Source: Rhodococcus ruber
GTDB lineage: Bacteria; Actinomycetota; Actinomycetes; Mycobacteriales; Mycobacteriaceae
NCBI RefSeq assembly: GCF_027270735.1
Contig: NZ_JAPWIJ010000005.1
Location: 372,001-436,000, forward strand
Direction: 5' to 3'
DNA: 64,000 nt
Position numbers and translations under genes: made by a program. Positions 6,227 through 20,225 of this stretch are shown here, piece by piece. Below the pieces are notes generated by a model. The model made no database searches and was not told the origin of the DNA. It was given only the letters and a program-made list of their open reading frames with translations. Positions within the stretch are counted from its first letter, which is position 1. Each line of letters opens with the position of its first letter.

Positions 6227-7858
6227 TCACCGACCGGAACGGCTCCTCAGCGCATTGACGAACACATTCGGGATTTCGGCCGGATTTCGTGCGACGAAGC
6301 TCGTACCGCCGGTGGCAGCGGAAATTTGCTGCAGCACACCGGCATCAGCGTCATCGGTGATGCCGATGGTGACGATGACGACCGGTCTGGACGGGTCCTG
6401 CTCTGAACGCAAAGTCGACAACAGCTCGTCGAGCGAGATGCTGTCGGGGTCCTCGTTGGTGCCGTCGGTGAGAATGATGACGCTGTTGACCGCGTTGGGG
6501 TCGTAACCCTCCTGCACGGTGCGGAACGCGGCCAACGTGGTGTCGTACAAGCCGGTACCGCCCCCGACCAGCGTCGGAAGGGTTCGAGTCTGTTGCAGCA
6601 GTACCTCGCGCTGAGTGGTGTTGCCGACCTTCTCGTCCATGCGCCGGATCGGTGCCAGCTCCTTGTAATCCTGACTGCCGCCGCCCAGTCCGATCGAAAA
6701 TGCCCACAACCCCATCGACGCGTTGTCGGGGAACAGGCGATTGCCGGTCTCGCTGGCCTGCACCGTCATGGCGATGCGCGTATTCGCACCCGCGCTGTAG
6801 TTCATCGATCCGGAGACGTCTTCCATCACCAATGCTCGCGAGGGAAGCGCCAACACCTGGTACTGCTGCAGCGTCGACTCGGCGGCCTGCTGATCGGCAA
6901 TCGTCAGGGGCGTCACCTCCCCGATCCCACGATCGGAATCCAGCACTGCATCGTCTGCTCCGCGGAATCCGGCCTCGGACAACGCCTGTTGGCCTTGCTC
7001 GGATTCGATGGCCGCCGACAGAGCCGTTCCGACGGACTTTGCGGCCTCGTGCCGTTCGTCTGCAGGCTCGGTCACGGCCAACGGGAAGTTCAGGAAGATG
7101 CTGCCCGTCGGCGGTACCGTCGCGCCGAGGTCTCCGTCGTTGTCGACCTGGTATTGCAAGAAGGTCTGCTCGGAGACCACTGCGACGCCGCCGTCGGCGA
7201 CCACGTCGTCCAGACGTGTTGTCGGATCGGCCTCACCGCGGGTGGCGGCCTGAGCCTGGGCGATGGGAACGAGAGCCGCCCCGACCGAGTCGAGTGCCTT
7301 CTCGTCCGATCCGGCCTCGGCCACCGCACCCAGGATCGCCGCGTCGGAGATGGTGTTGGTCAACGGATTCCCGATGCGCAGGCCTTCGAGCTTCAGGGCA
7401 GTGAGCCAGGTATCGAAGAACGGCACCTCGTCCTTGCGTGTTGCGAGCACAGCTGGGGTACTGGCCACCGACTGACTCGCGAGGTCGATCAGCGACGCGG
7501 TGGACCGGACCGTCTTGCCGACCCACAGTGACGAATCCGGAATCCAGAGAGAGGGAACATCGGCACCCTTGGCCACTGCAGCCGACACCTGACCCGACTC
7601 GCTCGCGGTCACCTCGATCCGAGCGCAATCCAGATCCTCCGCGGACGTGCCGTCGACGATCTTCTGCAGCACCGGCGCGATCGCGGGGTCCGCGGCCAGC
7701 GAGTAGGACGCGGGGTCGCCGCATTCGGAACCGAAGGCCTTCTGTGCAACGACCACGCCGCCAGCGATCACGACGAGGAGCGCGACGGCAATGATGCCGT
7801 ACTTCACCACTCCTCTACTGCTCGTCGTGGACGACGAAGCACTGTGCCTACCGGGCAT
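6227..7858 (-). CDS. Membrane-anchored solute-binding/VWA-domain protein (copy 2)
   Basis: A 543-residue paralogue of the neighbouring gene with the same architecture: basic N-terminus, one membrane segment (about 18-40), solute-binding-like region with the shared DxPSLWIPDSSLWVGKT and PPTGSIFLNFPLAV stretches, then a VWA domain carrying EDVSGSM, GGTGLYDTT and ILTDGTNED. The two copies differ most in the solute-binding half, so they may bind different ligands or surface partners while the VWA half is kept. The genes are separated by 101 bases with no obvious terminator and probably form one transcript. Function is not established. Confidence 0.75.
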   Translation of the reverse strand: MPGRHSASSSTTSSRGVVKYGIIAVALLVVIAGGVVVAQKAFGSECGDPASYSLAADPAIAPVLQKIVDGTSAEDLDCARIEVTASESGQVSAAVAKGADVPSLWIPDSSLWVGKTVRSTASLIDLASQSVASTPAVLATRKDEVPFFDTWLTALKLEGLRIGNPLTNTISDAAILGAVAEAGSDEKALDSVGAALVPIAQAQAATRGEADPTTRLDDVVADGGVAVVSEQTFLQYQVDNDGDLGATVPPTGSIFLNFPLAVTEPADERHEAAKSVGTALSAAIESEQGQQALSEAGFRGADDAVLDSDRGIGEVTPLTIADQQAAESTLQQYQVLALPSRALVMEDVSGSMNYSAGANTRIAMTVQASETGNRLFPDNASMGLWAFSIGLGGGSQDYKELAPIRRMDEKVGNTTQREVLLQQTRTLPTLVGGGTGLYDTTLAAFRTVQEGYDPNAVNSVIILTDGTNEDPDSISLDELLSTLRSEQDPSRPVVIVTIGITDDADAGVLQQISAATGGTSFVARNPAEIPNVFVNALRSRSGR

Positions 7859-7930
7859 GACATGACCTCTCCGTAGCGAGCGAGAGGGAGAAGATCACCC
7901 GCCCCGCCGTTCGGTTCGCCAGATACTACG

Positions 7931-8362
7931 TCAGGCGTAGATCTTCACGAACGTCTTCAACGAGTTCTCGATGTCGCCCTTGAGTGCACGGGCCACGCCG
8001 GAACCGATCGGACCGAACAGCGGTGCACCACCCAGGTTGATGTCGATGGTGATCTCGGAACCGTCGCCCTTGGATTTCACGGACATGTTCAGACCGATCT
8101 TGACTCCGCCCTTGCCGTTGCCCTTGAGCTCGAGCTTCTTGGGCGGATCGTAGGACTCGATCTTCCAGGACACCCGGTTGCGCATGCCTTTCACGCTGGC
8201 GATGGAGTCCAGAGTGGTGCCGACGGCCAACTGCTCGGGCAGCTCACCGCGCCACGCTTCGTGGATGGAGAGCCACTGCTCGTAACCGGACAGATCGGAC
8301 GCATGCGCCCACGTCTGCTCGGGGGTCAGCGGGACGTCGAGGGAAACCTTCAGCTTGGCCAC
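7931..8362 (-). CDS. SRPBCC protein resembling Rv0910 (toxin-like)
   Basis: A 143-residue soluble protein with the START/polyketide-cyclase-like fold pattern: N-terminal strand KVSLDVPLTPEQTW, HASDLSGYEQWL, then the basic hairpin VKGMRNRVSWKIESYDPP and a C-terminal amphipathic helix. Length and wording closely match M. tuberculosis Rv0910, which was reported as the toxin of the Rv0909-Rv0910 pair; other SRPBCC proteins bind hydrophobic ligands. Here the Rv0909-like gene is about 9 kb away at 17582. The start codon is GTG without a visible Shine-Dalgarno sequence. A TACCAT element ends 7 bases before it, so the message may be leaderless. Confidence 0.75.
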   Translation of the reverse strand: MAKLKVSLDVPLTPEQTWAHASDLSGYEQWLSIHEAWRGELPEQLAVGTTLDSIASVKGMRNRVSWKIESYDPPKKLELKGNGKGGVKIGLNMSVKSKGDGSEITIDINLGGAPLFGPIGSGVARALKGDIENSLKTFVKIYA

Positions 8363-8384
8363 AGCAGGGATGGTAACCGCTGCG

Positions 8385-8428
8385 CGAGAAGTGCCCGTGT
8401 GAGGCCTTGCTCACACGGGCACTTCTCG
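8385..8428 (-). terminator. Long perfect hairpin downstream of actP
   Basis: A 19-bp perfect stem (arms 8385-8403 and 8410-8428; core GAAGTGCCCGTGTGAG) with a 6-base loop. It lies 18 bases beyond the actP stop codon and 22 bases before the start codon of the SRPBCC gene. No T-tract follows on either strand, so it is a terminator of the T-less type or an mRNA-stabilising structure that separates the two units. Confidence 0.65.
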
Positions 8429-8446
8429 ATCACATCTGCGGGTGTA

Positions 8447-10081
8447 CTAGTGCGCGCTGGCCTTTTCCGCACCGATGCCGGTGAGGGAACGAACTTCCAT
8501 TTCGGCCTGCTTGTCGGTGTTCTCGGTGTCCTTCGAGATCAGCGTTCCGACGATACCGAGGATGAATGCCAGCGGGATCGACACGATGCCCGGGTTGGAG
8601 AGCGGGAACCAGGCGAAATCCGAGCCGGGGATCATCGACGTCTTCGATCCCGATACGGCCGGGGAGAAGATGATCAGCACGATCGTCGAGATCAGGCCGC
8701 CGTACATGCTGAACAGTGCGCCCGTGGTGGTGAAGCGACGCCAGAACAGCGAGTACAGAATGGTCGGCAGGTTCGCGGCCGCAGCGACGGCGAACGCGAG
8801 TGCCACCAGGAAGGCGATGTTCTGCCCGTTGGCGAGGATGCCGAGGCCGATGGCCAGGATGCCGATGACGACGGCCGTGATCCGCGAGACCTTGACCTGC
8901 TTCTTGTCGTCGACCTTGCCCTTCTTGATGACGCTCGCGTAGATGTCGTGAGCGAACGACGCCGACGCGGTGATCGTCAAGCCGGCGACCACGGCGAGGA
9001 TGGTCGCGAAGGCGACCGCCGAGATGACACCGAGCAGAATGACGCCGCCGAGCTCGAACGCCAACAGCGGGGCCGCGGAGTTCTGACCGCCGGCCGAGGC
9101 CAGGATGCGGTCCGGTCCGACTATCGCCGCGGCACCGTAGCCGAGCACGAGGGTGAACAGGTAGAACGCGCCGATGAGCGCGATGGCCCACACGACGCTG
9201 CGACGAGCTTCCTTGGCGGTGGGCACCGTGTAGAAGCGCATCAGCACGTGCGGCAGACCCGCGGTGCCGAGCACGAGTGCGATACCGAGCGAAAGGAAGT
9301 TGATCTTCGAGGTGGCGCTGCCGCCGTACTGAGCACCGGGCTCGATGACATCGCGGGCACCGACGATCGGGTCGGCCGAGCTCGACACCATCGCCTGAGC
9401 GCTACCGAGAAGCTCGGAGAAGTTCAGGCCGAACTTCGCGAGCACGAGAACGGTCATGAATGCGGCGCCGGCGATGAGCAGAACGGCCTTGATGATCTGC
9501 ACCCAGGTGGTGCCCTTCATGCCGCCGATGAGCACGTACGCGATCATCAGCACACCGACGATGGCGATGACGATGGACTGCCCGGTGCGGTCGGAGATGT
9601 CGAGCAACAATGCGACGAGTCCGCCGGCACCTGCCATCTGTGCGAGCAGGTAGAACAGCGAGACGGTCAGGGTGGACAACGCAGCCGCGGTGCGAACCGG
9701 GCCTTGCTTGAGCCGGAAGCTCAGCACGTCCGCCATGGTGAATTTGCCTGTGTTCCTGAGCAACTCGGCCACCAGGAGCAGCGCGACGAGCCAGGCGACG
9801 AGGAAGCCGATGGAGTACAGGAAGCCGTCGTAGCCATACACGGCGATGGCACCGGCGATACCGAGAAAGCTTGCCGCGGAAAGGTAGTCGCCGGCGATGG
9901 CGACGCCGTTCTGAGGCCCGGAGAATCCGCCGCCTGCGGTGAAGAACTCCGCGGAGGTCGCGTTCTTCTTCGAGGCGCGGATGACGACGGCCATCGTGAT
10001 GAGGACGAACGCGCCGAAGATGGCGATGTTGACGATCGGTTCACCGACGGTGGTGTCGGCGGCCTGGGCAAGAATGTTCAC
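8447..10081 (-). CDS. actP: Sodium:solute symporter, cation/acetate type (ActP)
   Basis: A 544-residue SSS-family permease with about 13 membrane segments. Family signatures include GDYLSAASFLGIAGAIAVYGYDG in the first core helices and GTAGLPHVLMRFYTVPTAKEARRS in the middle, typical of ActP acetate permeases. It should take up acetate or related short carboxylates with Na+ or H+. The gene overlaps the DUF485 gene by four bases, the usual actP partner arrangement, and the pair is preceded by a CRP/GlxR-like site. A hairpin closes the unit. Glycolate or pyruvate remain possible substrates. Confidence 0.85.
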   Translation of the reverse strand: MNILAQAADTTVGEPIVNIAIFGAFVLITMAVVIRASKKNATSAEFFTAGGGFSGPQNGVAIAGDYLSAASFLGIAGAIAVYGYDGFLYSIGFLVAWLVALLLVAELLRNTGKFTMADVLSFRLKQGPVRTAAALSTLTVSLFYLLAQMAGAGGLVALLLDISDRTGQSIVIAIVGVLMIAYVLIGGMKGTTWVQIIKAVLLIAGAAFMTVLVLAKFGLNFSELLGSAQAMVSSSADPIVGARDVIEPGAQYGGSATSKINFLSLGIALVLGTAGLPHVLMRFYTVPTAKEARRSVVWAIALIGAFYLFTLVLGYGAAAIVGPDRILASAGGQNSAAPLLAFELGGVILLGVISAVAFATILAVVAGLTITASASFAHDIYASVIKKGKVDDKKQVKVSRITAVVIGILAIGLGILANGQNIAFLVALAFAVAAAANLPTILYSLFWRRFTTTGALFSMYGGLISTIVLIIFSPAVSGSKTSMIPGSDFAWFPLSNPGIVSIPLAFILGIVGTLISKDTENTDKQAEMEVRSLTGIGAEKASAH

Positions 10082-10428
10082 GACTTCGCTCCCTGGGAGG
10101 CTTCCATCTCGGCGCGCAAGGCTGCGGCGCGAGGATCGAGTTCACGGTTGGCGAACTTCACATAGATGCCGGTGATGGCGAACGTCGTGATGAACTGGCC
10201 GAGGCCGAGCAGCAGGCCGACGTTGATGTTGCCCCACACCTTGGTCGACATGAAGTCGACTGCGTATGTGCTCAGCAGCACGTAGACGACGTACCAGACC
10301 AGGAAGAACCCGGCCATCGGGAACACGAAGCTACGCAGGCGGTGTCGGAGTTCCTGGAACTCCGGACTGGCTTGCATGTCTACGAACGCTTGCGCGTCCG
10401 GTGGCGAATTGGTTTCCGGTGCGGTCAC
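10078..10428 (-). CDS. DUF485 membrane protein, partner of ActP
   Basis: A 116-residue protein with two membrane segments (SFVFPMAGFFLVWYVVYVLL and a second around VGLLLGLGQFITTFAITGIYV), matching the DUF485 family that is almost always encoded directly before acetate symporters. Its role is unknown; assistance or regulation of the symporter is assumed from gene order. The GTG start has a good AGGAG ribosome-binding site six bases upstream. The stop codon overlaps the actP start. Confidence 0.85.
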   Translation of the reverse strand: MTAPETNSPPDAQAFVDMQASPEFQELRHRLRSFVFPMAGFFLVWYVVYVLLSTYAVDFMSTKVWGNINVGLLLGLGQFITTFAITGIYVKFANRELDPRAAALRAEMEASQGAKS

Positions 10429-10476
10429 CTTGGACTCCTGAAGTTGATGTGAGCTCTAGCTGAGTCGGAACAGTAA

Positions 10477-10492
10477 TGAGAGTCAGGTCACA
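10477..10492. promoter_or_regulatory. CRP/GlxR-like binding site
   Basis: TGAGA-N6-TCACA matches the TGTGA-N6-TCACA consensus of cAMP receptor proteins in 9 of 10 positions. It lies 49 bases before the DUF485 start codon in the 148-base gap upstream of the DUF485/actP unit. GlxR and related regulators control acetate metabolism in corynebacteria, which suits the location. Assignment rests on the motif alone. Confidence 0.45.
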
Positions 10493-10576
10493 AAATCAGG
10501 AGGTGGCGTCGATCACACGGCGGGCTGCGGGAGTGTGCGACGAGCGGTCGAGAATGGCGGCCGAGCGGTGTGCGCC

Positions 10577-12319
10577 CTACAGTTCGCGCTCTCGGTCTTT
10601 GCCCATGTCGAGGCCCTCGGGCAGGTGCAGTCGGGCGAAGATGCGGGAGATGTCCGACGGCACCGTCTTTCGGGTGGCGAGGCTGACGACGATCATCGCG
10701 GCGAAGGCGACGGGAACGCTGACTGCGGCCGGGTAGCCGAGTATCGCTGCCGCCCAACCGCCGAGGATGCCGTCGGAGATGGGGGTGACGACGGAGATCG
10801 ACGCGGCCACGAGTGAGATACCGCCGCCGAGGAGCAGCCCGGTTGCTGCTCCTGCTGCGGTGAGTCCGCGCCACCAGATACCGAGTACGAGCAGTGGGCA
10901 CAGGGTGGACGCCGCGACGGCGAACACGAGCCCGACAGTGCGTGAGAGGTCCAGCGAGACAACGCCGATCGACAGGGCGAGCGGTACGGCGCCGGCGAGT
11001 ATCGCGGCGACGCGGAAGTCCCGCACCTTGCCCGAGAGCACATCGGTACTCAACACTCCGGCGATGCTGACCAGCAGACCGGACGAGGTCGACAGGAAGG
11101 CCGCGATGGCACCGGCGGCCACGAGAGCGGCGAGCAGCTGCCCCGGAATTCCGGACAGCACGGACCCCGGCAACAGCAGTACCGCGGCGTCCGATGCCCC
11201 GGTGATGAGCAGTTGCGGTACGTACAGGCGCGCGAAAACGCCGAGCACCGTCGGGAACAGGTAGAACATGCCGAGTAGCGCCAGCACGGTCAACGATGTG
11301 AGTCGCGCGGCTCGGCCGTCCGGGTTGGTGTAGAACCGCACCAGCACGTGCGGCAGTCCCAGCGTGCCGAGGAACGTGGCCAGAATCAGCGAATACACCT
11401 GATACAGCGGATGCGCGCCGCCCAGTCCCCCGCCGGGCATCGACCAGGCCCGGTCGGTCGTCGGCGCTCCCGCCACCACGGGGACGGGCGAGCCGGCGTC
11501 GAGCGTGAGCACAGTGCCCGATCCGAGCTCGTGTTCGCCTGCCTCGAGACGCACTCGGCCGTCGACGCTCCCGTCGTCGAGGGTGCCGGCCACGGATACG
11601 ACGATCGGTGAATCCACCTGTACGAGAACATCGGTGGTGATGTCGACGACGGTCTGTTCTGTCACGGTCGGCGGAGCCGGGCTGCCGACGCTTCGGTCGT
11701 CGGAATAGAAATGCACGGCCAACACCAGTGCCGGAATGGCGATCGCGGTGAGCTTGAGCCAGTACTGGAACGCCTGCACGAAGGTGATCGAGCGCATTCC
11801 ACCGCCCACGACGTTGGCGATGACGATGAGCCCGACAGACAGGGCCCCGACCCAGCCCGGTACGCCGAGGAGGATGTTCAGGGTCAGGCCCGCTCCCTGG
11901 AACTGCGGCACCAGATACAGCGCGCAGATGACCACCACCACCAGCATGGCCACGGTACGCAACCATGGCGCGCCGAGCCGGAACTCGACGAAATCCGGCA
12001 CCGTGTACGCGCCACTCCGGCGCAGGGGCGCGGCGACGAACAGCAGCAGACCCAGGTAGCCCGCGGTGAAGCCGACGGGATACCACAGCGCGTCGGCACC
12101 GTACTTGGCTATGAGACCGGCGACACCGAGAAACGATGCAGCAGAAAGATACTCACCGCTGATGGCTGCGGCGTTCCACCGCGGCCCGACGGAACGCGAA
12201 GCCACCAGAAAGTCCGAGGTGGTGCGGGCCAACCGAACTCCGTAGACGCCGATGCCCACGGTGGCCGCAGCTGCCAGGAGCAGCGCGATCACCGTTGCGA
12301 CGGGAATGGACTGGTTCAC
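10577..12319 (-). CDS. SSS-family monocarboxylate-type symporter with extracytoplasmic insertion
   Basis: A 580-residue sodium:solute symporter. SGEYLSAASFLGVAGLIAKYGADA near residues 54-77 and GTLGLPHVLVRFYTNPDGRAARL mark the same subfamily as ActP and the corynebacterial monocarboxylate carrier MctC. Residues about 206-300 are a hydrophilic, beta-rich, Ser/Thr/Val/Asp-rich insertion between membrane segments 6 and 7, absent from the ActP copy at 8447. It follows the small membrane-protein gene by six bases and sits at the end of a run with a LytS/LytTR pair, so its expression is probably under that two-component system. Pyruvate, acetate or propionate are likely substrates. Confidence 0.8.
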   Translation of the reverse strand: MNQSIPVATVIALLLAAAATVGIGVYGVRLARTTSDFLVASRSVGPRWNAAAISGEYLSAASFLGVAGLIAKYGADALWYPVGFTAGYLGLLLFVAAPLRRSGAYTVPDFVEFRLGAPWLRTVAMLVVVVICALYLVPQFQGAGLTLNILLGVPGWVGALSVGLIVIANVVGGGMRSITFVQAFQYWLKLTAIAIPALVLAVHFYSDDRSVGSPAPPTVTEQTVVDITTDVLVQVDSPIVVSVAGTLDDGSVDGRVRLEAGEHELGSGTVLTLDAGSPVPVVAGAPTTDRAWSMPGGGLGGAHPLYQVYSLILATFLGTLGLPHVLVRFYTNPDGRAARLTSLTVLALLGMFYLFPTVLGVFARLYVPQLLITGASDAAVLLLPGSVLSGIPGQLLAALVAAGAIAAFLSTSSGLLVSIAGVLSTDVLSGKVRDFRVAAILAGAVPLALSIGVVSLDLSRTVGLVFAVAASTLCPLLVLGIWWRGLTAAGAATGLLLGGGISLVAASISVVTPISDGILGGWAAAILGYPAAVSVPVAFAAMIVVSLATRKTVPSDISRIFARLHLPEGLDMGKDREREL

Positions 12320-12325
12320 CGACGC

Positions 12326-12688
12326 CTAGTCCTCGACCAGACCGACGAACTCCGTCTCGTTGCGCTCGGCCCGGCGCACGTACGCCCAACCGACCCCGAA
12401 CAGCAACGGGTAGATCGCCACTCCGAGCACCAACCACGGCAACCCGATACCCAGCAGCGCGACATCGGTGAAGCGCTCGAGCAGCAGGACCGACAACGGT
12501 ATTGCGAACAGTATCGACAGCGTCATCACCGCCAACCGCACCGACAGCAGCAGTTGCGCACGAACCAGGCTACGAACCAGAGCGTCGCCCACCTCGGTTT
12601 GCTCCTGCACTTCGACGCGGGTGCGCACCATCCGTGCGCCACGACGTTGCGAGAGTACGACGCGCTGCCGATGCGGTTGACTCACCAC
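12326..12688 (-). CDS. Small two-helix membrane protein (DUF485-like position)
   Basis: A protein of about 120 residues with two hydrophobic segments (RLAVMTLSILFAIPLSVLLL and LGIGLPWLVLGVAIYPLLFG) and a charged C-terminus. It holds the same position relative to the SSS symporter as DUF485 proteins do relative to ActP, and C. glutamicum has a similar small gene beside mctC. The sequence itself is only loosely DUF485-like. GTG GTG gives two possible starts (12688 or 12685), with AGGGG just upstream inside the end of the response-regulator gene. Confidence 0.7.
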   Translation of the reverse strand: MVSQPHRQRVVLSQRRGARMVRTRVEVQEQTEVGDALVRSLVRAQLLLSVRLAVMTLSILFAIPLSVLLLERFTDVALLGIGLPWLVLGVAIYPLLFGVGWAYVRRAERNETEFVGLVED

Positions 12689-12698
12689 GCACCCCTGA

Positions 12699-13499
12699 TC
12701 ATCGCGACGACCACGATTGCAGCGGCCCGCGGACCAGTCTGTCCTTGAGCTCCCTGGCGTGCCTGCGGCTCACCGGCAACTCACAGGCGGCCAGATCTCC
12801 ACTGCCACGCAAGCACACCACCAGACCCGAACCGACACTGCGGATTCCCGTCACCAGCCGCAGCGAGACCAGATAGGAGCGGTGCACCCGGAGGAATCCG
12901 GCATCGGCCCAACGACTTTCGAGTGCAGAGATCGGTATCCGCACCAGATGCGAGCCGTTGGCGGTGTGCAATCTGGCGTAGTCGCCGTCGGCCTCGACCC
13001 ATGCGACCGAGGAGCGGTGGACCAGGGTGGTGGTTCCACCGAGTTCGACGGGAATGACCTCGTCGGCGGAGGTGTCGGCGGACTGCGCCGGTCGACGCCG
13101 GGCAACCAGGACGCGTCGAACGGCCTCGGCGAGCCGATCCTCGCGCAGTGGCTTGAGCAGATAGTCGACGGCACCCAAGTCGTAGGCGGCGAGCGCCCGA
13201 TCGTCGTGGGCGGTGACGAACACGACGGCGGGTGGCCGAGCGAATGCCGACAGGATGCCGGCCAGCTCGAGTCCGTCGAGGCCGGGCATGTTGATGTCGA
13301 GGAACACGGCATCGACAACGGGTTGCGCGGAGGTCTGCTGGAGCTGCCGTAGCGCGGTGGTCGCGTCCTGCGCGGTGTAGACCTCGGCGACGGCGTCCTG
13401 CTCGCGTAGCAGGAAGGCGAGCTCATCGAGCGCAGGGCGCTCGTCGTCCACCGCGAGCACGACCAAACCTCGTCCGCTCGTGGTTCCGGCCTGCGTCAT
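12699..13499 (-). CDS. LytTR-family response regulator
   Basis: A 266-residue regulator. The receiver domain (about 12-130) has the acidic pair DDE at 18-20, phospho-acceptor D68 in FLDINMPGLDG and the lysine in YLLKPLR. A LytTR DNA-binding domain occupies about 160-260 (WVEADGDYARLHTANGSHLVR and FLRVHRSYLVSLR). Its start overlaps the kinase stop by four bases. The closest described systems are YpdB/BtsR-type regulators of pyruvate transport, so control of the downstream SSS symporter is likely. Confidence 0.9.
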   Translation of the reverse strand: MTQAGTTSGRGLVVLAVDDERPALDELAFLLREQDAVAEVYTAQDATTALRQLQQTSAQPVVDAVFLDINMPGLDGLELAGILSAFARPPAVVFVTAHDDRALAAYDLGAVDYLLKPLREDRLAEAVRRVLVARRRPAQSADTSADEVIPVELGGTTTLVHRSSVAWVEADGDYARLHTANGSHLVRIPISALESRWADAGFLRVHRSYLVSLRLVTGIRSVGSGLVVCLRGSGDLAACELPVSRRHARELKDRLVRGPLQSWSSR

Positions 13500-14668
13500 G
13501 CCCGCACACCCGGCCTGAATTTCGGCACGCGCATGCTCACCTTCGTGCCTGCGCCCGGTGCGGTGTCCACTACGAGACCGTAGTCGTTTCCGAAGGCCGC
13601 CCGCAGCCGATCGTCCACGTTCGCCAATCCGACATGGGCCGCGTCCTCGGTGTGCAGGCTGCCCGACCGCAGCACCTCGGGGTCCATTCCCACGCCGTCG
13701 TCCTCGATGCTGATCACCGCGTCGGTGCCCTCGTCGGCAGCGATGATCGTCACGCGTCCGCCGTCGGCCTTGCCGGACAGGCCGTGCCGGACGGCATTCT
13801 CGACCAGCGGCTGCAACGCGAGGAACGGCAGCGCAACGCCCAGTACCTCGGGCGCGACCTGCAACGAGACCTGCAACGAATCACCGAAGCGGGCGCGCTC
13901 GAGTGTCAAGTACCGGTCGATGTTGCGAAGTTCGTCCGCGAGCACGGTGAATTCACCGGCATTGCGGAACGAATACCGAGTGAAATCGGCGAATTCGAGC
14001 ACCAGCTCCCTGGCCCGATCGGGATCGGTACGGACGAACGACGCGATGGTACCCAGTGCGTTGTAGATGAAGTGCGGGCTGATCTGCGCTCGGAGCGCCC
14101 GAACCTCGGCGCGATCCAACCGAGCCCTCGACGCATCGAGTTCGGCGAGTTCGATCTGCCCGCACGCGTAGCGAGCGACCTCGGCGATGGCACCGAGCAC
14201 GCCCGGTCCCGGCTCGTCGACCATGGCCGCACCCAACACCCCGACCACCGGCGAATCGTCGACTACCAGCGGCTGCGCCACCAGCGCCTTCACCGGATGG
14301 ATCGACCCGAGCGGCAGGCGCACCAACACTCGTCGCTGCCCGTCCACGGCTCGCTTCGCCGCCTCCACGAACGCCGGTGTCAGCTCCTCCCACGGACCGT
14401 CCCAGGCCAACAGGGAACCGTCGGGATCGCAGATACCGAGCGCGTCCGCCCCGGTCAGTACTCGCAGATGCGGTGCCGCGACCGATGCCGAGCGGGCGTC
14501 GAGACCATCGCGCAGCGGCTTGGCCGCCAGCGATGCGGTGTGCAGCGTGGAGTGCACGGCCCGTTCGGCCGGGGTGGTCAGATCGCGCCGACCACGCAGG
14601 CTGATGACTGCGATCACGGTGACGATCAGCGCCACGATCACTGCCAGCCAGGCCAGAGCAGCCGTCAT
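13496..14668 (-). CDS. LytS-type sensor histidine kinase
   Basis: A 390-residue kinase with one N-terminal membrane helix (3-24), a GAF-like sensor region (about 40-170), a His_kinase domain with QISPHFIYNALGTI (phospho-acceptor H199), and an ATPase domain with PLVENAVRHGL and IEDDGVGMDP. The start at 14668 was chosen because ATGA overlaps the stop of the esterase gene; a longer open frame runs upstream but is antisense-like noise over that gene. A single membrane helix and a cytoplasmic GAF-like domain suggest sensing of an intracellular metabolite, possibly a carboxylate. It should phosphorylate the LytTR regulator at 12699. Confidence 0.88.
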   Translation of the reverse strand: MTAALAWLAVIVALIVTVIAVISLRGRRDLTTPAERAVHSTLHTASLAAKPLRDGLDARSASVAAPHLRVLTGADALGICDPDGSLLAWDGPWEELTPAFVEAAKRAVDGQRRVLVRLPLGSIHPVKALVAQPLVVDDSPVVGVLGAAMVDEPGPGVLGAIAEVARYACGQIELAELDASRARLDRAEVRALRAQISPHFIYNALGTIASFVRTDPDRARELVLEFADFTRYSFRNAGEFTVLADELRNIDRYLTLERARFGDSLQVSLQVAPEVLGVALPFLALQPLVENAVRHGLSGKADGGRVTIIAADEGTDAVISIEDDGVGMDPEVLRSGSLHTEDAAHVGLANVDDRLRAAFGNDYGLVVDTAPGAGTKVSMRVPKFRPGVRA

Positions 14669-15846
14669 CGTGCGCACGTACCCGAAGTCGGTACGTTCAG
14701 GAATCGTTCGACGAGCCAGTCGACTCCGATGCCGTTGGCCGCCAGCTCGGCGTGGCCCTGTTGCGGTTCGGACCTGAACTCGACGTCGTCGCCCATGCCG
14801 CAGGCTGTCGCAACGGCATCCCGAGTCCACTGCGGATCGATCAGGTCGTCGCGCTCGCCGACCAGTACGAACAGCGGAACGTCGGTGCGAGATGCCGGCA
14901 GCACCACCGATTCGAGCCAGTCCGTCATCCGATTCGCTGCATGCTCGGTGGCCGGGAGAGCATCGGCCGGGTCGATGACAGCTCCGGCGTCGGCCTTCGA
15001 GAAGCCGAGCAGATCGCTGCACGCCGTCAGTGCGGTCACGTTGTCGGCGAACGTGCCGCGGATGTAGTCCGAACGCTCGGCGCTCGGATCCGCGACGTGC
15101 AGACCCTCGAACAGATACGGCACCAGCAGCTGGCGCGGCAAGGTCTGTTCGGTCTCGGGGGCGAGGATGCGAGTCAGATCCGCGGTGGGCGAGAGCGCCG
15201 CGGCACCCACCAACTGCAAGCCGTCGCCGTAGTCTGCGCTGCGCTCGGCAGCTGCCCAGACCGCCTGCCCACCTTGAGAAGTGCCCACTGCACCCCACCG
15301 GGTACCGACGTCGGGCACCACGTTACGGGCAGCGCGCACCGCGTCGATGACGTCGTAGGCTGCGGCGTTTCGGTCGAGGTACGCCGGATCCCCCGGCGTC
15401 CCGAGCCCCTGGTAGTCCGTCACCACCACCACGGTGCCGCGCTCGAGGAACGGCGTCACCAATCCGATGGTGCCCAACAGATTCGGGTAGAGCGAGGGCG
15501 CGCATTCGTCGGTGACGCCGGTGGTGCCGTGCCCGACCGAGACGATCGGCCAGCCGCCCGGAGGCGCAGAACCCTTGGGCACGAACACCGTTCCCGATGT
15601 CTCGGTACCGCCACCGCTCACCCCATCGGTGGTGCGGTAGACGATCTTCGTGGCCGTCCCCCCGAGGTACGCGACGCCGATGTCGACCTGGCCCAGCTGC
15701 ATCGCCGACACGATCGCGCCGCGCTCGGGGCCCTCGGGCGCAGGAATCGCTGCAGGGACGGACGGTTCGGGTGGCACCACCGGCGTGCTGCAGGCGGCAA
15801 GAGCGAACACCAGTGCCGCGGCCGCCACCAACCCGCTCGACCTCAC
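14665..15846 (-). CDS. Lipoprotein alpha/beta hydrolase (secretory-lipase family)
   Basis: A 393-residue protein beginning with a lipoprotein signal, VRSSGLVAAAALVFALAAC, with the lipobox LAAC, so it is exported and lipid-anchored. The hydrolase domain shows the nucleophile elbow GTSQGG, an HGTTG stretch and a late histidine in QQGHAELA, as in LIP-type secretory lipases. It probably cleaves esters at the cell surface. The GTG start at 15846 has AGGAG about ten bases upstream. The stop overlaps the kinase start by four bases, tying the esterase to the LytS/LytTR unit. Substrate not readable from sequence. Confidence 0.85.
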   Translation of the reverse strand: MRSSGLVAAAALVFALAACSTPVVPPEPSVPAAIPAPEGPERGAIVSAMQLGQVDIGVAYLGGTATKIVYRTTDGVSGGGTETSGTVFVPKGSAPPGGWPIVSVGHGTTGVTDECAPSLYPNLLGTIGLVTPFLERGTVVVVTDYQGLGTPGDPAYLDRNAAAYDVIDAVRAARNVVPDVGTRWGAVGTSQGGQAVWAAAERSADYGDGLQLVGAAALSPTADLTRILAPETEQTLPRQLLVPYLFEGLHVADPSAERSDYIRGTFADNVTALTACSDLLGFSKADAGAVIDPADALPATEHAANRMTDWLESVVLPASRTDVPLFVLVGERDDLIDPQWTRDAVATACGMGDDVEFRSEPQQGHAELAANGIGVDWLVERFLNVPTSGTCAR

Positions 15847-15874
15847 TGTCTCTGCGCTCCTACATAACGTTCGT

Positions 15875-17506
15875 CTACATCGTGCGTCGTTCGATGCGGG
15901 CCTCGGCCGCAATCTCTTCCACGTCCAGACCATTCAACACTGCGCGCAGAGCTTCGTCGTCCAGCTCCCCCGAGTCGCGGGCGGCAACCAGCGCCGCCCG
16001 CTGCGCGACCAGCACGTTGTGCCGCAGGGTATCGAACAGCGCTCCGGCCGCCGCAATTCGCTTCTCCCGATCCTCGGTCTCGTCCGCGTCCAATCGTGCC
16101 CGCACCGAACGGCGAACGCGCGAGATGACCTCGGCTACCCGATCGCTGTCGACCCCCGCGATTCCGTCCTTTGCCGCACGCTCGAGGTAGGTCTCGGCGG
16201 CGGTGCGGGCGATGGCCTGCGAAAGCAATCGCTGATTGTCGGTGCGTTGCTGCTCGAGCGGATCTGCGACGTCGAGTCGGCGAATCAGCAACGGAAGCGT
16301 CAAGCCCTGCAGCAGCAAGGTGCCGACCGCGACGACGAACGCGACGGCTTGAATCACAGCGCGACCGGGGAATTCGTCCCCCACCACCGTCGTCAACGGC
16401 ACACCGGCGGCCGCGGCAAGCGTCACCACTCCGCGCATACCCGCCCAGGAGAGCACCAGGTTCTGCTGCCAGGTCAGACCGGTCTCGCGTGGTGCCTTTC
16501 GCCGAAACAGTCTGCGAAACAACATGTGTCGACCCGAATTGGCGAAAATCCAGGCAGGGCGGACGGCCATGACCACTACGAGCACCACCAGCGCGTACCC
16601 GAATACATGATGGACCGGCAACCCCTCGCGTTGCACTTCCTCGATCACGAACTTCAGTTGTAAACCCATGTAGGCGAACACGAATGCTTCGAGGAGCAGA
16701 TCGAGCGTCGGCCACACCTGGCGTTCCTGGACCCGAGTGGTGACCGAGACATCCGCGGTGATGCGGCCCAACACGAAGCCGGCGGTGACGACGGCCAGGA
16801 CACCGGACGCATGAATTTCCTCGGCCGCCAGATAGGCCGCGAAGGGCAGCACCAGACCGAGCACTGTCTCGAGGGCCGAATCGGCGATGCGCTTGCGGAC
16901 GAACCGGACGATGCGCGACAGGACCAGCCCAACCAGGACGCCCCCGACGATCTCGTAGGCGAAGAACAACACCGGTGAACCCAGTTCGATGCGGCTACCC
17001 GTCACCGACGCCACGGCCAGAGTGAACAGGGTCAATGCGGCCGCGTCGTTGACCAGGCTCTCCCCGGTGAGAATGGCCATCATTCTCGCGGGGAGGCCCA
17101 GCTTGCGGCCGACGGCGATCGCAGACACCGCGTCGGGTGGGGCTACGACGGCACCGAGCACCAGGGCCGCACCGAGCGTCAGTTCCGGAATCAGCAGATT
17201 CGCGAACCAGCCGACGGCGACCGTCGTCACGATCACCATCACCAGTCCGAGCCGGAGGATCTGGGCGAGGTTCCGCCGGAAGGTGACGAACGAGAAATCG
17301 AGCGCAGCCGAGTACAGCAGCGGTGGAAGCACCACGCCGAGGATCAGCTGGGGCGAGAGACTGACATGCGGAACGCCGGGAACGAAGGAGGCGATCGACC
17401 CGACGGTGACCAGAACGAGCGGGACCTGAAGGTCCAGACGCTTGGCGAAACCGGCGACGGCGATCGCGAAAATGACTACGAGAAGAAGAATCGGTCCGTC
17501 CACCAA
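15875..17506 (-). CDS. CPA1-family Na+/H+ antiporter
   Basis: A 543-residue protein with about 12 membrane segments in residues 1-400 and a cytoplasmic tail of about 130 residues rich in charged helices. VVAPPDAVSAIAVGRKLGLP and ESLVNDAAALTLF carry the conserved Asp and Asn-Asp of CPA1 (NhaP) exchangers, which expel Na+ in exchange for protons. The next gene downstream, the lipoprotein esterase, begins 28 bases after its stop on the same strand, so the antiporter may be co-transcribed with the sensor/symporter unit. That would be sensible if the symporters use Na+. Confidence 0.87.
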   Translation of the reverse strand: MVDGPILLLVVIFAIAVAGFAKRLDLQVPLVLVTVGSIASFVPGVPHVSLSPQLILGVVLPPLLYSAALDFSFVTFRRNLAQILRLGLVMVIVTTVAVGWFANLLIPELTLGAALVLGAVVAPPDAVSAIAVGRKLGLPARMMAILTGESLVNDAAALTLFTLAVASVTGSRIELGSPVLFFAYEIVGGVLVGLVLSRIVRFVRKRIADSALETVLGLVLPFAAYLAAEEIHASGVLAVVTAGFVLGRITADVSVTTRVQERQVWPTLDLLLEAFVFAYMGLQLKFVIEEVQREGLPVHHVFGYALVVLVVVMAVRPAWIFANSGRHMLFRRLFRRKAPRETGLTWQQNLVLSWAGMRGVVTLAAAAGVPLTTVVGDEFPGRAVIQAVAFVVAVGTLLLQGLTLPLLIRRLDVADPLEQQRTDNQRLLSQAIARTAAETYLERAAKDGIAGVDSDRVAEVISRVRRSVRARLDADETEDREKRIAAAGALFDTLRHNVLVAQRAALVAARDSGELDDEALRAVLNGLDVEEIAAEARIERRTM

Positions 17507-17581
17507 GACGATTGTGCCGTCAGCCGCGCACTATGGCGCGACCGACGGCCGCTCCGACGAACTCCAGACGACCGATACGTC

Positions 17582-17770
17582 CTACTTGTCCGGAATTGCC
17601 TTCTTTGCTGCTTCTTGGACCTTGTCGATCTTGTCGGAGTACTTGCCACCGGTCTTGTTGTCGATGAAGTCCCCCGCCTTCTCCACGACGTCGTCGATCT
17701 TGTCCGAGTTCTCGGCCGCAAGGTCCTTGCCCTTGTCGACGATGCCCTTCAGATTGTCTGCGAAGCCCAT
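17582..17770 (-). CDS. MT0933-family antitoxin-like small protein (Rv0909-like)
   Basis: A 62-residue acidic/basic helical protein (DNLKGIVDKGKDLAAENS, KAGDFIDNKTGGKYSDKIDK). The wording KxGDFxDxKTGGKYSDKIDKVQ is diagnostic of the MT0933_antitox family, which includes M. tuberculosis Rv0909, the proposed antitoxin of SRPBCC protein Rv0910. It lies 40 bases after ctpE, as Rv0909 follows Rv0908, but the SRPBCC gene is not next to it; it is at 7931. A good AGGAG ribosome-binding site precedes the ATG. Similar sequences also occur in CsbD-like stress proteins, so the antitoxin role is only family-based. Confidence 0.8.
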   Translation of the reverse strand: MGFADNLKGIVDKGKDLAAENSDKIDDVVEKAGDFIDNKTGGKYSDKIDKVQEAAKKAIPDK

Positions 17771-17810
17771 GACTGTCTCCTGTCGCTGGAATGATCGAAC
17801 ATCTCGAAGC

Positions 17811-20225
17811 TTACGTTTTGTACTGACTGTTGCGTAGTGACGTTCGATTGCGTAGCGCCGATCCGAATCGATGGGCGACCTCGACCAGCGCGATTCCGAT
17901 GCCGCCGATGATCAGTGCACTGGTGGTGGCTCCGAGGTTCGACGGGTCGAGCTTGAAGAAGGTACGGCAGAACGGGATTGCGAACAGCAACAGGTAGCCG
18001 CCCACCGAACCGGCGAGCAGCAGGATCTTCCACCAGTTGTAGGGCCTCGCGACGACGGCCAGCACCCACAACGCGATCATGATCAGGGTGATCAATGCGG
18101 TGGTGCTGGCCTGCGTCACCTGCGTCTCTGTGGCGTTCGGGCCGGCATAGACCAGCAGGTAGGAGACGAATGTGCACGAGCCGACGATCAGTCCGGACGG
18201 TACGGCCAGCCGCATCACCCGCGAGACGAATCCACTGCGCGCCCGCTCGTTGTTGGGCGCGAGCGAGAGCACGAACGCCGGGATGCCGATGGTGAACCAC
18301 GCCGCGATCGTCACGTGCCGCGGCAGGAACGGATACGGAATCGGCTCGAAGTGGAAGATCTGGGAGAGCACGCCCGAGAGCCCGATGAGAAACGCCAACA
18401 GCACCGAGTACACGGTCTTGGTGAGAAACAGGTTCGAGACGCGTTCGATGTTGCCGATGACGCGGCGTCCCTCCCCCACGACGTAGGGCAGCGTGGCGAA
18501 CTTGTTGTCCAACAAGACGATCTGCGCGACCGCTCGGGTGGCGGCGCTTCCCGAGCCCATCGATACGCCGATATCGGCGTCCTTGAGAGCCAGCACGTCG
18601 TTGACGCCGTCACCGGTCATCGCGACCGTGTGGCCGCGAGATTGCAACGCGCCCACCATCGCCCGCTTCTGATCGGGCCGAACGCGGCCGAACGTGGTGG
18701 AACGGGCGAGAGTGTCGGCCAACTGCTCCGAGTCCTCGGGCAGCTCTCGCGCGTCGATCGGGGCGTCGCCGCCGGGCAGGCCGAGCGATCCGGCGACCGC
18801 ACCGACCGAGACGGCATTGTCGCCGGAAATCACCTTCACCTGTACGTGCTGACTTGCGAAGTATTCCAACGTCTCTCGGGCATCCTCGCGCACCTTCTGC
18901 TCGAGAATCACCAGCGCTCGCGGGGTGACGACGCCGGGCGCATTCGCATCGTCGACGGCACTGTCGGAGCTGGCGAGCAGCAACACACGCAGGCCGTGGG
19001 AACCGGCGTCCTCGGCACGCCGGGCGATGTCGGCGGAGGCGTCGAGCAACACGTCGGGGGCACCGAGCAACCAGTTTCCGTGCTCGCCGTACGACAGTCC
19101 GCTCCACTTCTTCGCCGAGGAGAACGGGGCAACGGCCGTCTGCGTCCACCCCGGTGCGTCGGGATACGCCTCGCCCACGGCCTGCACACTGGCATTGGGC
19201 CGCGGATCGTCGTGCGCCAGCGACGCGAGAGCCGCTGTGACGGAATCGGAATCGAGCTCGTCCATCAGTACCAACTCGGACAGCCGCATACCGTTCTCGG
19301 TCAGGGTGCCGGTCTTGTCGGCACACACCACGTCGACCCGCGCGAGTCCTTCGATGGCAGGCAGCTCCTGCACCAGGCATTGCCGTTGTCCGAGCCGAAT
19401 CACACCCACCGCGAACGCGATCGACGTCATCAGTACCAGGCCCTCGGGGACCATCGGAACGAGTGCGGCCACCATGCCGTTGAGGGCAGGCCGCAAAGCC
19501 TGCCCGCTGGAGAACAATTGGTTGTAGATGATCAGTGCGCCGGCCGGAATCATCAGGTACGTGATGAACTTCAAGATCTTGTCGATACCGCTGCGCAGCT
19601 CGGACTTGACCAGGGTGAACTTGCTGGCCTCCTCGGCCAGCTTGGCCGCGTAGGCATCGCGCCCCACCTTGGTCGCGCGATACGCCCCGCTCCCCGAGAC
19701 CACGAAGCTGCCCGAAAGTACTTGCGCTGCTTGAAGTTTGTGCACCGTGTCGGCTTCACCGGTGAGCAACGACTCGTCGATCTCGAGGCTCGCGGTCTCG
19801 ATGACCTCGCCGTCGACGACGATCTGATCACCGGGCCCCAGTTCGACGATGTCGCCGAGCACGACCTCGTCGGGCGGAATCTGCTTCGACTTGCCCTCGC
19901 GTCGTACCTGGGGCTTGTTCTGACCGACGATCGCCAGCCGATCCAGCGTGCGCTTGGCGCGAATCTCCTGAATGATGCCGATGCCGCTGTTCGCGACGAT
20001 CAACAGCCCGAACATGCCGTCGATCACCGAACCCGTCGAGAGCACGATGATCAACAGCACACCGAGAATCGCGTTGATACGGGTGAACACGTTGCCGCGG
20101 ACGATGTCGCGAACCGACCGAGAAGCGCGGGCCGGAACGTCGTTCGACTTTCCCTCGGCCTTGAGCTCGGCAGCTTCCGCCTCGGTCAGACCGGTGTCAC
20201 GCTGCGCATCGGCGTCGATAGACAT
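17811..20225 (-). CDS. ctpE: P-type ATPase, CtpE-like (Ca2+ transport)
   Basis: An 804-residue P-type ATPase. Two membrane segments lie at about 52-88, the actuator motif LTGEAD at 154, two segments at about 218-275 with PMVPEGL in the fourth helix, the phosphorylation motif [12 protein letters not shown] (D303), and the hinge [22 protein letters not shown]. Six C-terminal membrane helices follow. Mycobacterial CtpE was reported to import Ca2+; the PEGL rather than CPC motif in helix 4 excludes heavy-metal pumps. It follows the MBL-fold gene by 23 bases and precedes the Rv0909-like gene, reproducing the mycobacterial order. Confidence 0.88.

Follow-up and report, generated by a model that had tools for sequence, protein, structure and literature searches.

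Control of carboxylate uptake by two-component systems is known already. In E. coli, BtsS/BtsR and YpdA/YpdB each combine a histidine kinase and a LytTR regulator with a carboxylate transporter as target. A 5TM-5TMR_LYT domain is the hallmark of both kinases, and BtsS binds pyruvate on the periplasmic face of this domain (PMC10653868, PMC5552118). In Vibrio and Pseudomonas, acs, actP and a gene for a DUF485 protein are under the control of CrbS/CrbR, and CrbS is reported to signal without transport through SLC5 (PMC5715377). In rhizobia, two-component systems (RpuS/RpuR and MctS/MctR, with MctP) are found beside a monocarboxylate SSS transporter, and RpuR acts on mctP through an imperfect direct repeat (PMC9100948). 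Here we describe a locus in a stretch of 64,000 nucleotides from Rhodococcus ruber, called the window below, in which a histidine kinase, a LytTR response regulator and an SSS symporter precede the monocarboxylate transporter gene mctC. Comparison with other genomes makes it probable that the uptake of acetate, and probably of related monocarboxylates, is governed by kinase and regulator as a dedicated two-component switch acting on mctC. This assignment of mctC as the target is testable. A literature search for actinobacterial LytTR systems connected with uptake of acetate or through mctC returned none among the matches listed, most subscription literature lying outside the search, and no target for this kinase was named in the literature among those matches. 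For the kinase-regulator pair, the present evidence provides one promoter, one predicted binding site and a likely substrate.

Genes of the locus and comparison with known systems

Coordinates are positions in the window, and all genes of the locus lie on the minus strand. The kinase (13496..14668) is a sensor histidine kinase of the His_kinase family (PF06580, 81.5 bits, cut-off 25.2) with a HATPase_c domain. Its N-terminus is strongly hydrophobic (residues 1-28), a weaker hydrophobic segment falls inside the kinase core (residues 267-285), and about 160 residues separate the N-terminal segment from the His_kinase domain. No Pfam match to 5TM-5TMR_LYT was found in this protein up to an E-value of 0.1. 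The response regulator (12699..13499) contains a receiver domain (Response_reg, PF00072, 80.6 bits) and a LytTR domain (PF04397, 59.4 bits), both above cut-off. It is followed by P2 (12326..12688), a small membrane protein with two hydrophobic segments and a sub-threshold DUF485 score (18.1 vs 28 bits), and by the SSS symporter (10577..12319; PF00474, 137.6 bits). The best NCBIfam model for the symporter is TIGR03648 (VC_2705-type), of which it is not a member (234.0 bits, cut-off 320.75). It is not MctC, since it scores 196.6 bits on the MctC model (cut-off 670). Downstream lie a gene for a DUF485 membrane protein (10078..10428; PF04341, 123.9 bits), the first gene of the predicted target operon, and mctC itself (8447..10081; NCBIfam NF058657, 909.6 bits, equivalog cut-off 670), which encodes the predicted regulated importer.

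The original prediction for this DNA had listed five genes, namely an esterase, the kinase, the regulator, P2 and the symporter. These genes were found in the order given there, with overlaps of 4 base pairs (bp) at esterase/kinase and kinase/regulator and gaps of 10 bp at regulator/P2 and 6 bp at P2/SSS. The coordinates that it gave leave out an antiporter gene upstream and DUF485-mctC downstream, which is separated from SSS by a gap of 148 bp. Its label of a LytS kinase fits the PF06580 family but not the strict LytS type, the 5TM-5TMR_LYT domain not being matched. For the same reason, its comparison with BtsSR and YpdAB applies to the LytTR logic and not to the sensor.

In contrast to BtsS/BtsR and YpdA/YpdB, the locus includes a P2-SSS pair and an MctC-type target. 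With C. glutamicum MctC it shares a transporter above the NCBIfam MctC equivalog cut-off. With CrbS/CrbR it would share two-component control of acetate import and activation, and the coupling of the kinase to an SSS-type membrane component. However, CrbS is one protein comprising SLC5, STAC and kinase, whereas SSS and kinase are separate genes here and the regulator is of the LytTR type. RpuS is an SLC5/STAC kinase for pyruvate, and its system differs from the present one in the regulator and in having no separate SSS pair. Thus, the one-polypeptide SLC5/STAC architecture of CrbS, CbrA and RpuS is not the one found in the window, and the Pfam scan of kinase and symporter gave no match to STAC. 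If the P2-SSS pair is the sensor, the locus would represent unfused transporter-coupled acetate sensing in Actinobacteria, parallel to CrbS/R.

Relatives of solved structure were found for the core of the kinase only (6swj being the best), and for SSS among distant members only. A polar insert of 70 to 90 residues after about residue 205 (~205-300) was present in 29/29 aligned SSS sequences of the family. It seems to be absent or diverged in many other families, where the alignments are broken, and would then not be essential everywhere.

Conservation of gene content and order

The family survey covered 221 genomes, with genera coded g1 to g31, and 136 loci were analysed, including the window. 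A kinase was detected in 136 of the 221 genomes, SSS in 135 and mctC in 192. The orthologous kinase accounts for 135 of these cases; the remaining one (G035, on a contig of 3.7 kilobases (kb)) is a different kinase, 33% identical. SSS is present in 135 of the kinase loci and in no more than 135 genomes overall, which makes the SSS genomes and the orthologous-kinase genomes one set. Among the 136 loci, the regulator is present in all, P2 and SSS in 135 each, and DUF485 and MctC in 129 each. Kinase, regulator, P2 and SSS follow one another in one order and on one strand in 129/136 loci and, judged from this collinearity, the gene run exceeds chance. The full core through MctC is preserved in 123/136. 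Two g18 loci are scored as broken in the order count since a second regulator, 7 kb upstream, was picked. As these loci compare, the conserved core is kinase-regulator-P2-SSS-DUF485-MctC, and it extends beyond the five genes first noted.

Spacing was also conserved. Start and stop codons lie within 30 bp of each other at regulator/P2 in 127/130 loci, at P2/SSS in 121/130 and at kinase/regulator in 64/128, all of these being upper counts because, among possible starts, the one closest to the preceding stop codon was taken. The local regulator was not found in the spacing analysis for L088 and four rearranged g22 loci.

The kinase is widespread beyond the family, being present in about half of a class-wide sample (151/296 genomes). 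SSS was found in 145 of these genomes; according to a count by eye from two lists, 143 genomes contain both genes, 8 contain the kinase alone and 2 contain SSS alone. The two SSS-only genomes are 72% and 78% complete. Sampled genomes of genus g3, which we take to be Corynebacterium, gave no match to the kinase. Corynebacterial acetate genes are under RamA/RamB/GlxR.

A predicted LytTR site upstream of DUF485-mctC

Gaps between SSS and DUF485 display a common footprint across loci. In the window, it corresponds to a tandem of LytTR half-sites (10538..10568, minus strand), the predicted site of the regulator, spaced 21 bp start to start and with one mismatch to CCGYTYRNCG taken twice. A degenerate third half-site, whose position was worked out by hand (10518..10527, minus strand), follows 20 bp after the second and shows up, with some of its columns partly conserved, when the footprint of 128 loci is weighted by genus.

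The half-site CCGYTYRNCG, derived from these same gaps, occurs in 127/129 of them, compared with a mean of 3.3 and a maximum of 8 in 50 dinucleotide shuffles. Neighbouring half-sites lie exactly 21 bp apart in 81 pairs, whereas 20 shuffle rounds gave no pair at 20-24 bp. The classical LytTR consensus ([TA][AC][CA]GTTN[AG][TG]) was detected in 81/129 gaps vs 7.7 in shuffles. With at most one mismatch, the tandem is present in 128/129 gaps, but in only one of 3184 coding segments of these loci, each 200 bp long. Mismatches are distributed over 128 gaps as 93 exact tandems, 34 with one mismatch and one with two (L141). L144 adds one exact tandem and stands outside the 128-locus footprint, its SSS frame running through the site. 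Elsewhere than in the SSS-DUF485 gap, all 136 loci together contain six tandems with at most one mismatch, including that of genome G025 described below. Half-sites of 10 bp with an 11-bp gap fit the canonical LytTR site, which is described as two direct repeats of 9 bp with 10-13 bp between them (PMC11347149).

No conserved tandem was found before the kinase operon or before P2-SSS in the fetched loci, and regulation of either of them through the same site was rejected. A wider regulon in the window genome was rejected too: allowing up to two mismatches, the search returned 70+70 places vs 44+39 for a reversed-pattern control, and no exact match. Eight other places with one mismatch were seen among the matches listed, and six of them lie in open frames of 229-774 amino acids with coding-like codon bias. 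The other two (L247 and L254) lie in short frames only (81 and 117 amino acids). No known RNA element was detected in 7000-18500 at gathering score.

Downstream of the repeats lies a palindrome, TGTGA-N6-TCTCA (10477..10492, minus strand), which we take to be CRP/GlxR-like. The form TGTGA-N6-[TC]C[AT]CA occurs in 99/128 loci, in 82 of them exactly 76 bp from half-site 1 (counts made with no shuffle control). This suggests a second input at the mctC promoter, of cyclic AMP type or related to carbon status.

In a set of 80 named loci, 74 have SSS and DUF485, and 64 of these 74 carry the tandem (62 by script, L197 and L204 by a further look). Non-family loci with both genes number ten, one of which, from an uncultured metagenome-assembled genome (L238), has the tandem with two mismatches.

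Some loci are rearranged. In four g22 loci (L093, L115, L116 and L122), the regulator-P2-SSS-DUF485-mctC block stands in inverted orientation with respect to the kinase and retains the DUF485 site. In the Pseudonocardia/Actinomycetospora loci L231, L234, L235, L237, L239, L240, L242, L244, L245 and L246, kinase and regulator are 1-4 kb apart, and L235, L244 and L245 have two SSS matches each. Where DUF485 was found in these loci, no such tandem lies upstream of it.

Co-occurrence of site and kinase

We compared the region upstream of mctC in genomes with and without the kinase. No tandem was found there in 16 kinase-less genomes of genera g4, g18, g28 and g29 (0/16), the best candidates having 4-5 mismatches. 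Among kinase-bearing genomes in which mctC lies outside the kinase locus, four of the five were examined (G043 was left out), and the tandem precedes mctC in all four, three times exactly and once with one mismatch. In three of them, mctC is on another contig; in G183 it is about 14 kb from the kinase. Within genus g29, two half-sites are present in each of the 5 kinase-bearing loci, and the tandem in 0/7 kinase-less genomes.

The window genome contains a single PF06580 kinase and a single LytTR domain, and 36/37 genomes of the same genus have one LytTR domain. Because the tandem precedes DUF485-mctC and tracks the kinase, and because each partner is single in the genome, the regulator most likely controls DUF485-mctC via the predicted site. 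The single copies also make a clean genetic test possible.

Nature of the acid

One genome, G025 (locus L165, oriented, ~13123-15916), displays a natural replacement of the target, with a SatP-type transporter and AcsA behind the LytTR tandem. Kinase, regulator, P2 and SSS are all present in it, and mctC gave no match. An exact tandem at the stop codon of SSS immediately precedes a GPR1/FUN34/YaaH (AceTr_1) gene, which is followed by AcsA. Both assignments are well above threshold, at 146.5 vs 50 bits for the acetate uptake transporter and 951.9 vs 724.95 bits for AcsA.

Moreover, acs adjoins mctC in 14/129 family loci, 13 of the 129 loci ending within 700 bp of mctC. The cases belong to four genera (g15, 3/4; g19, 2/2; g22, 8/15; g31, 1/1). 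Among the named loci, a set that overlaps the family loci, the proportion is 14/74. Acetate is favoured because it is common to the G025 replacement and to the acs-mctC arrangements, and it is our best guess for the substrate. In C. glutamicum, deletion of mctC is described as leaving growth normal on 100 mM acetate at pH 7 (PMC7026483). Low acetate is thus the condition under which a phenotype would have to be looked for.

Proposed mechanism

Sequence comparison establishes which genes are present, how they are linked, where the site lies and that it accompanies the kinase; from this we infer binding, activation, the ligand and the role of SSS, as follows. The kinase, anchored by its single N-terminal segment and coupled to P2-SSS, would detect the acid or its uptake and phosphorylate the regulator. 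The regulator would then bind two or three direct half-sites before DUF485-mctC, spaced by about two turns of the DNA helix, and, once bound, would activate MctC. In some genera, the gene run continues with acs (acetate--CoA ligase), and in G025 mctC is replaced by a SatP-type transporter with acs. The CRP/GlxR-like site would add the carbon-status input.

In this scheme, SSS may be a signalling partner of the kinase. Such a role was considered because the SSS genomes match the kinase genomes, while the mctC genomes do not. A more specific version, which we put forward tentatively and by analogy with CrbS and RpuS, where one chain does this work, is a split transporter-receptor made of separate proteins: P2-SSS could be the acetate-sensing part of the kinase, not primarily an importer, and could gate the MctC or SatP/Acs programme across much of Actinomycetes.

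Several observations weigh against the proposed switch or parts of it. In the window alone, 3 matches to the tandem were found at no more than two mismatches, a number reached by 5/100 shuffles; the window site is therefore not separable from chance by itself, and the case for it rests on comparison. The 16 kinase-less genomes, those for which a position of mctC was among the matches listed, were drawn from 58 that bear mctC, genera g3 and g30 not being among them. Nine of the ten non-family named loci, those of Pseudonocardia/Actinomycetospora, have 4-6 mismatches to the tandem. The 8 kinase-only genomes of the class-wide sample gave no SSS match, and SSS may also be a plain second importer. 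As for the acid, acs is not beside mctC in the window genome, and the case for acetate as the signal is drawn from a single replacement genome and from four genera in which acs adjoins mctC. Finally, MctC is described as carrying pyruvate and propionate as well as acetate (PMC7918813).

Alternative explanations

Alternatively, the N-terminal region of the kinase could itself be the sensor, for a metabolite in the cytosol, with P2-SSS a co-transcribed second importer. We regard this as possible, at less than even confidence. The N-terminal hydrophobic segment of the kinase and the ~160 residues that precede its His_kinase domain make a cytosolic sensor possible, and the anatomy of SSS is that of its transporter family. 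However, the SSS and kinase genome sets are nearly identical, unlike that of mctC, and a plain importer would be expected to separate from the kinase more often.

The same circuit might respond to pyruvate, or to propionate, in the manner of BtsSR/YpdAB or of RpuS/R with MctP. The substrates described for MctC would allow it. The LytS/LytTR systems of E. coli are reported to have pyruvate as their signal (PMC10653868, PMC5552118), and RpuS/R is described as controlling the pyruvate symporter MctP (PMC9100948). Nevertheless, G025 has an acetate transporter and an acetate--CoA ligase as its replacement target, and acs adjoins mctC in four genera. We consider a pyruvate or propionate signal rather unlikely.

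According to the original prediction, the unit senses a short carboxylate and switches on an SSS importer of its own, with the esterase as an integral part that supplies the carboxylate. Of this, a LytTR two-component unit tied to short-carboxylate uptake was supported. The target was not, as the predicted site precedes DUF485-mctC and not SSS, and neither was the integral esterase. The esterase gene (14665..15846) encodes an esterase/lipase lipoprotein of the LIP family (PF03583 LIP, 67.2 bits) with a lipobox (LAAC) and a GTSQG motif. A relative of it adjoins the kinase in 49/136 loci: 18/18 in g1, 12/12 in g9, 16/16 in g23, 2/6 in g21 and 1/4 in g20 (a doubtful case, 39% identical and ~2 kb away), and 0/80 elsewhere. 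All 49 adjacent relatives have GxSxG, and 36/49 fit a strict lipobox pattern. In 29/49, the stop of the esterase and a possible start of the kinase are no more than ~90 bp apart, the gap is at least 360 bp in 20/49, and a gene for YjbR (PF04237, 45.2 bits) lies between the two in 19/49. Loci of R. jostii (L172) and R. opacus (L171) contain both core and esterase, with kinase and esterase about 400 bp apart. In loci without the esterase, other genes precede the kinase, as given by a rough frame-based pick. Searched with the esterase at an E-value of 1e-20, the window genome gives at least 8 matches.

The idea of an integral supplier draws on the esterase standing beside the kinase in 46/46 sampled kinase-bearing loci of three genera, on a 4-bp overlap as a possible start in at least 16/49 loci (g1, g9 and g23), and on SSS lying close behind the regulator. 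Against it, the esterase is not next to the kinase in 87/136 loci, YjbR intervenes as described, and two g9 genomes (G105 and G118) contain esterase relatives (49% and 47% identical) with no kinase match. On these grounds the esterase was rejected as a core part. Moreover, the conserved tandem is absent before the kinase operon and P2-SSS. We consider the whole explanation improbable. The association with the kinase is clade-limited, not random as it might have been in other genomes: it is complete in three genera, where tight spacing is common if YjbR is absent, and nil outside five. This limitation to some genera tempers the reading of the esterase as supplier. By its distribution, the esterase looks like a clade-specific neighbour that is not essential to the circuit; it may feed acetate to the system.

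That the repeats are bound by another regulator, the kinase link being a phylogenetic coincidence, is highly improbable: related genomes are not independent and the site is a predicted one, but the window genome has a single LytTR domain, site and kinase covary within g29, and the site is kept when mctC is remote from the kinase and in the four inverted g22 loci.

Neighbouring genes

Upstream of the esterase, a Na+/H+ antiporter gene (15875..17506, minus strand; PF00999, 192.9 bits; TIGR00831, 324.1 bits, above cut-off) belongs to the same directon and ends 28 bp before the esterase. It is a neighbour outside the core, and a relative is present in 64/136 loci. Downstream of mctC lies a further neighbour that we do not count with the system, a gene for an SRPBCC protein of the Rv0910 family (7931..8362, minus strand; NF047960, 194.4 bits), relatives of which were found in 65/136 loci, in genera g1, g9, g20, g21, g23, g24 and g27.

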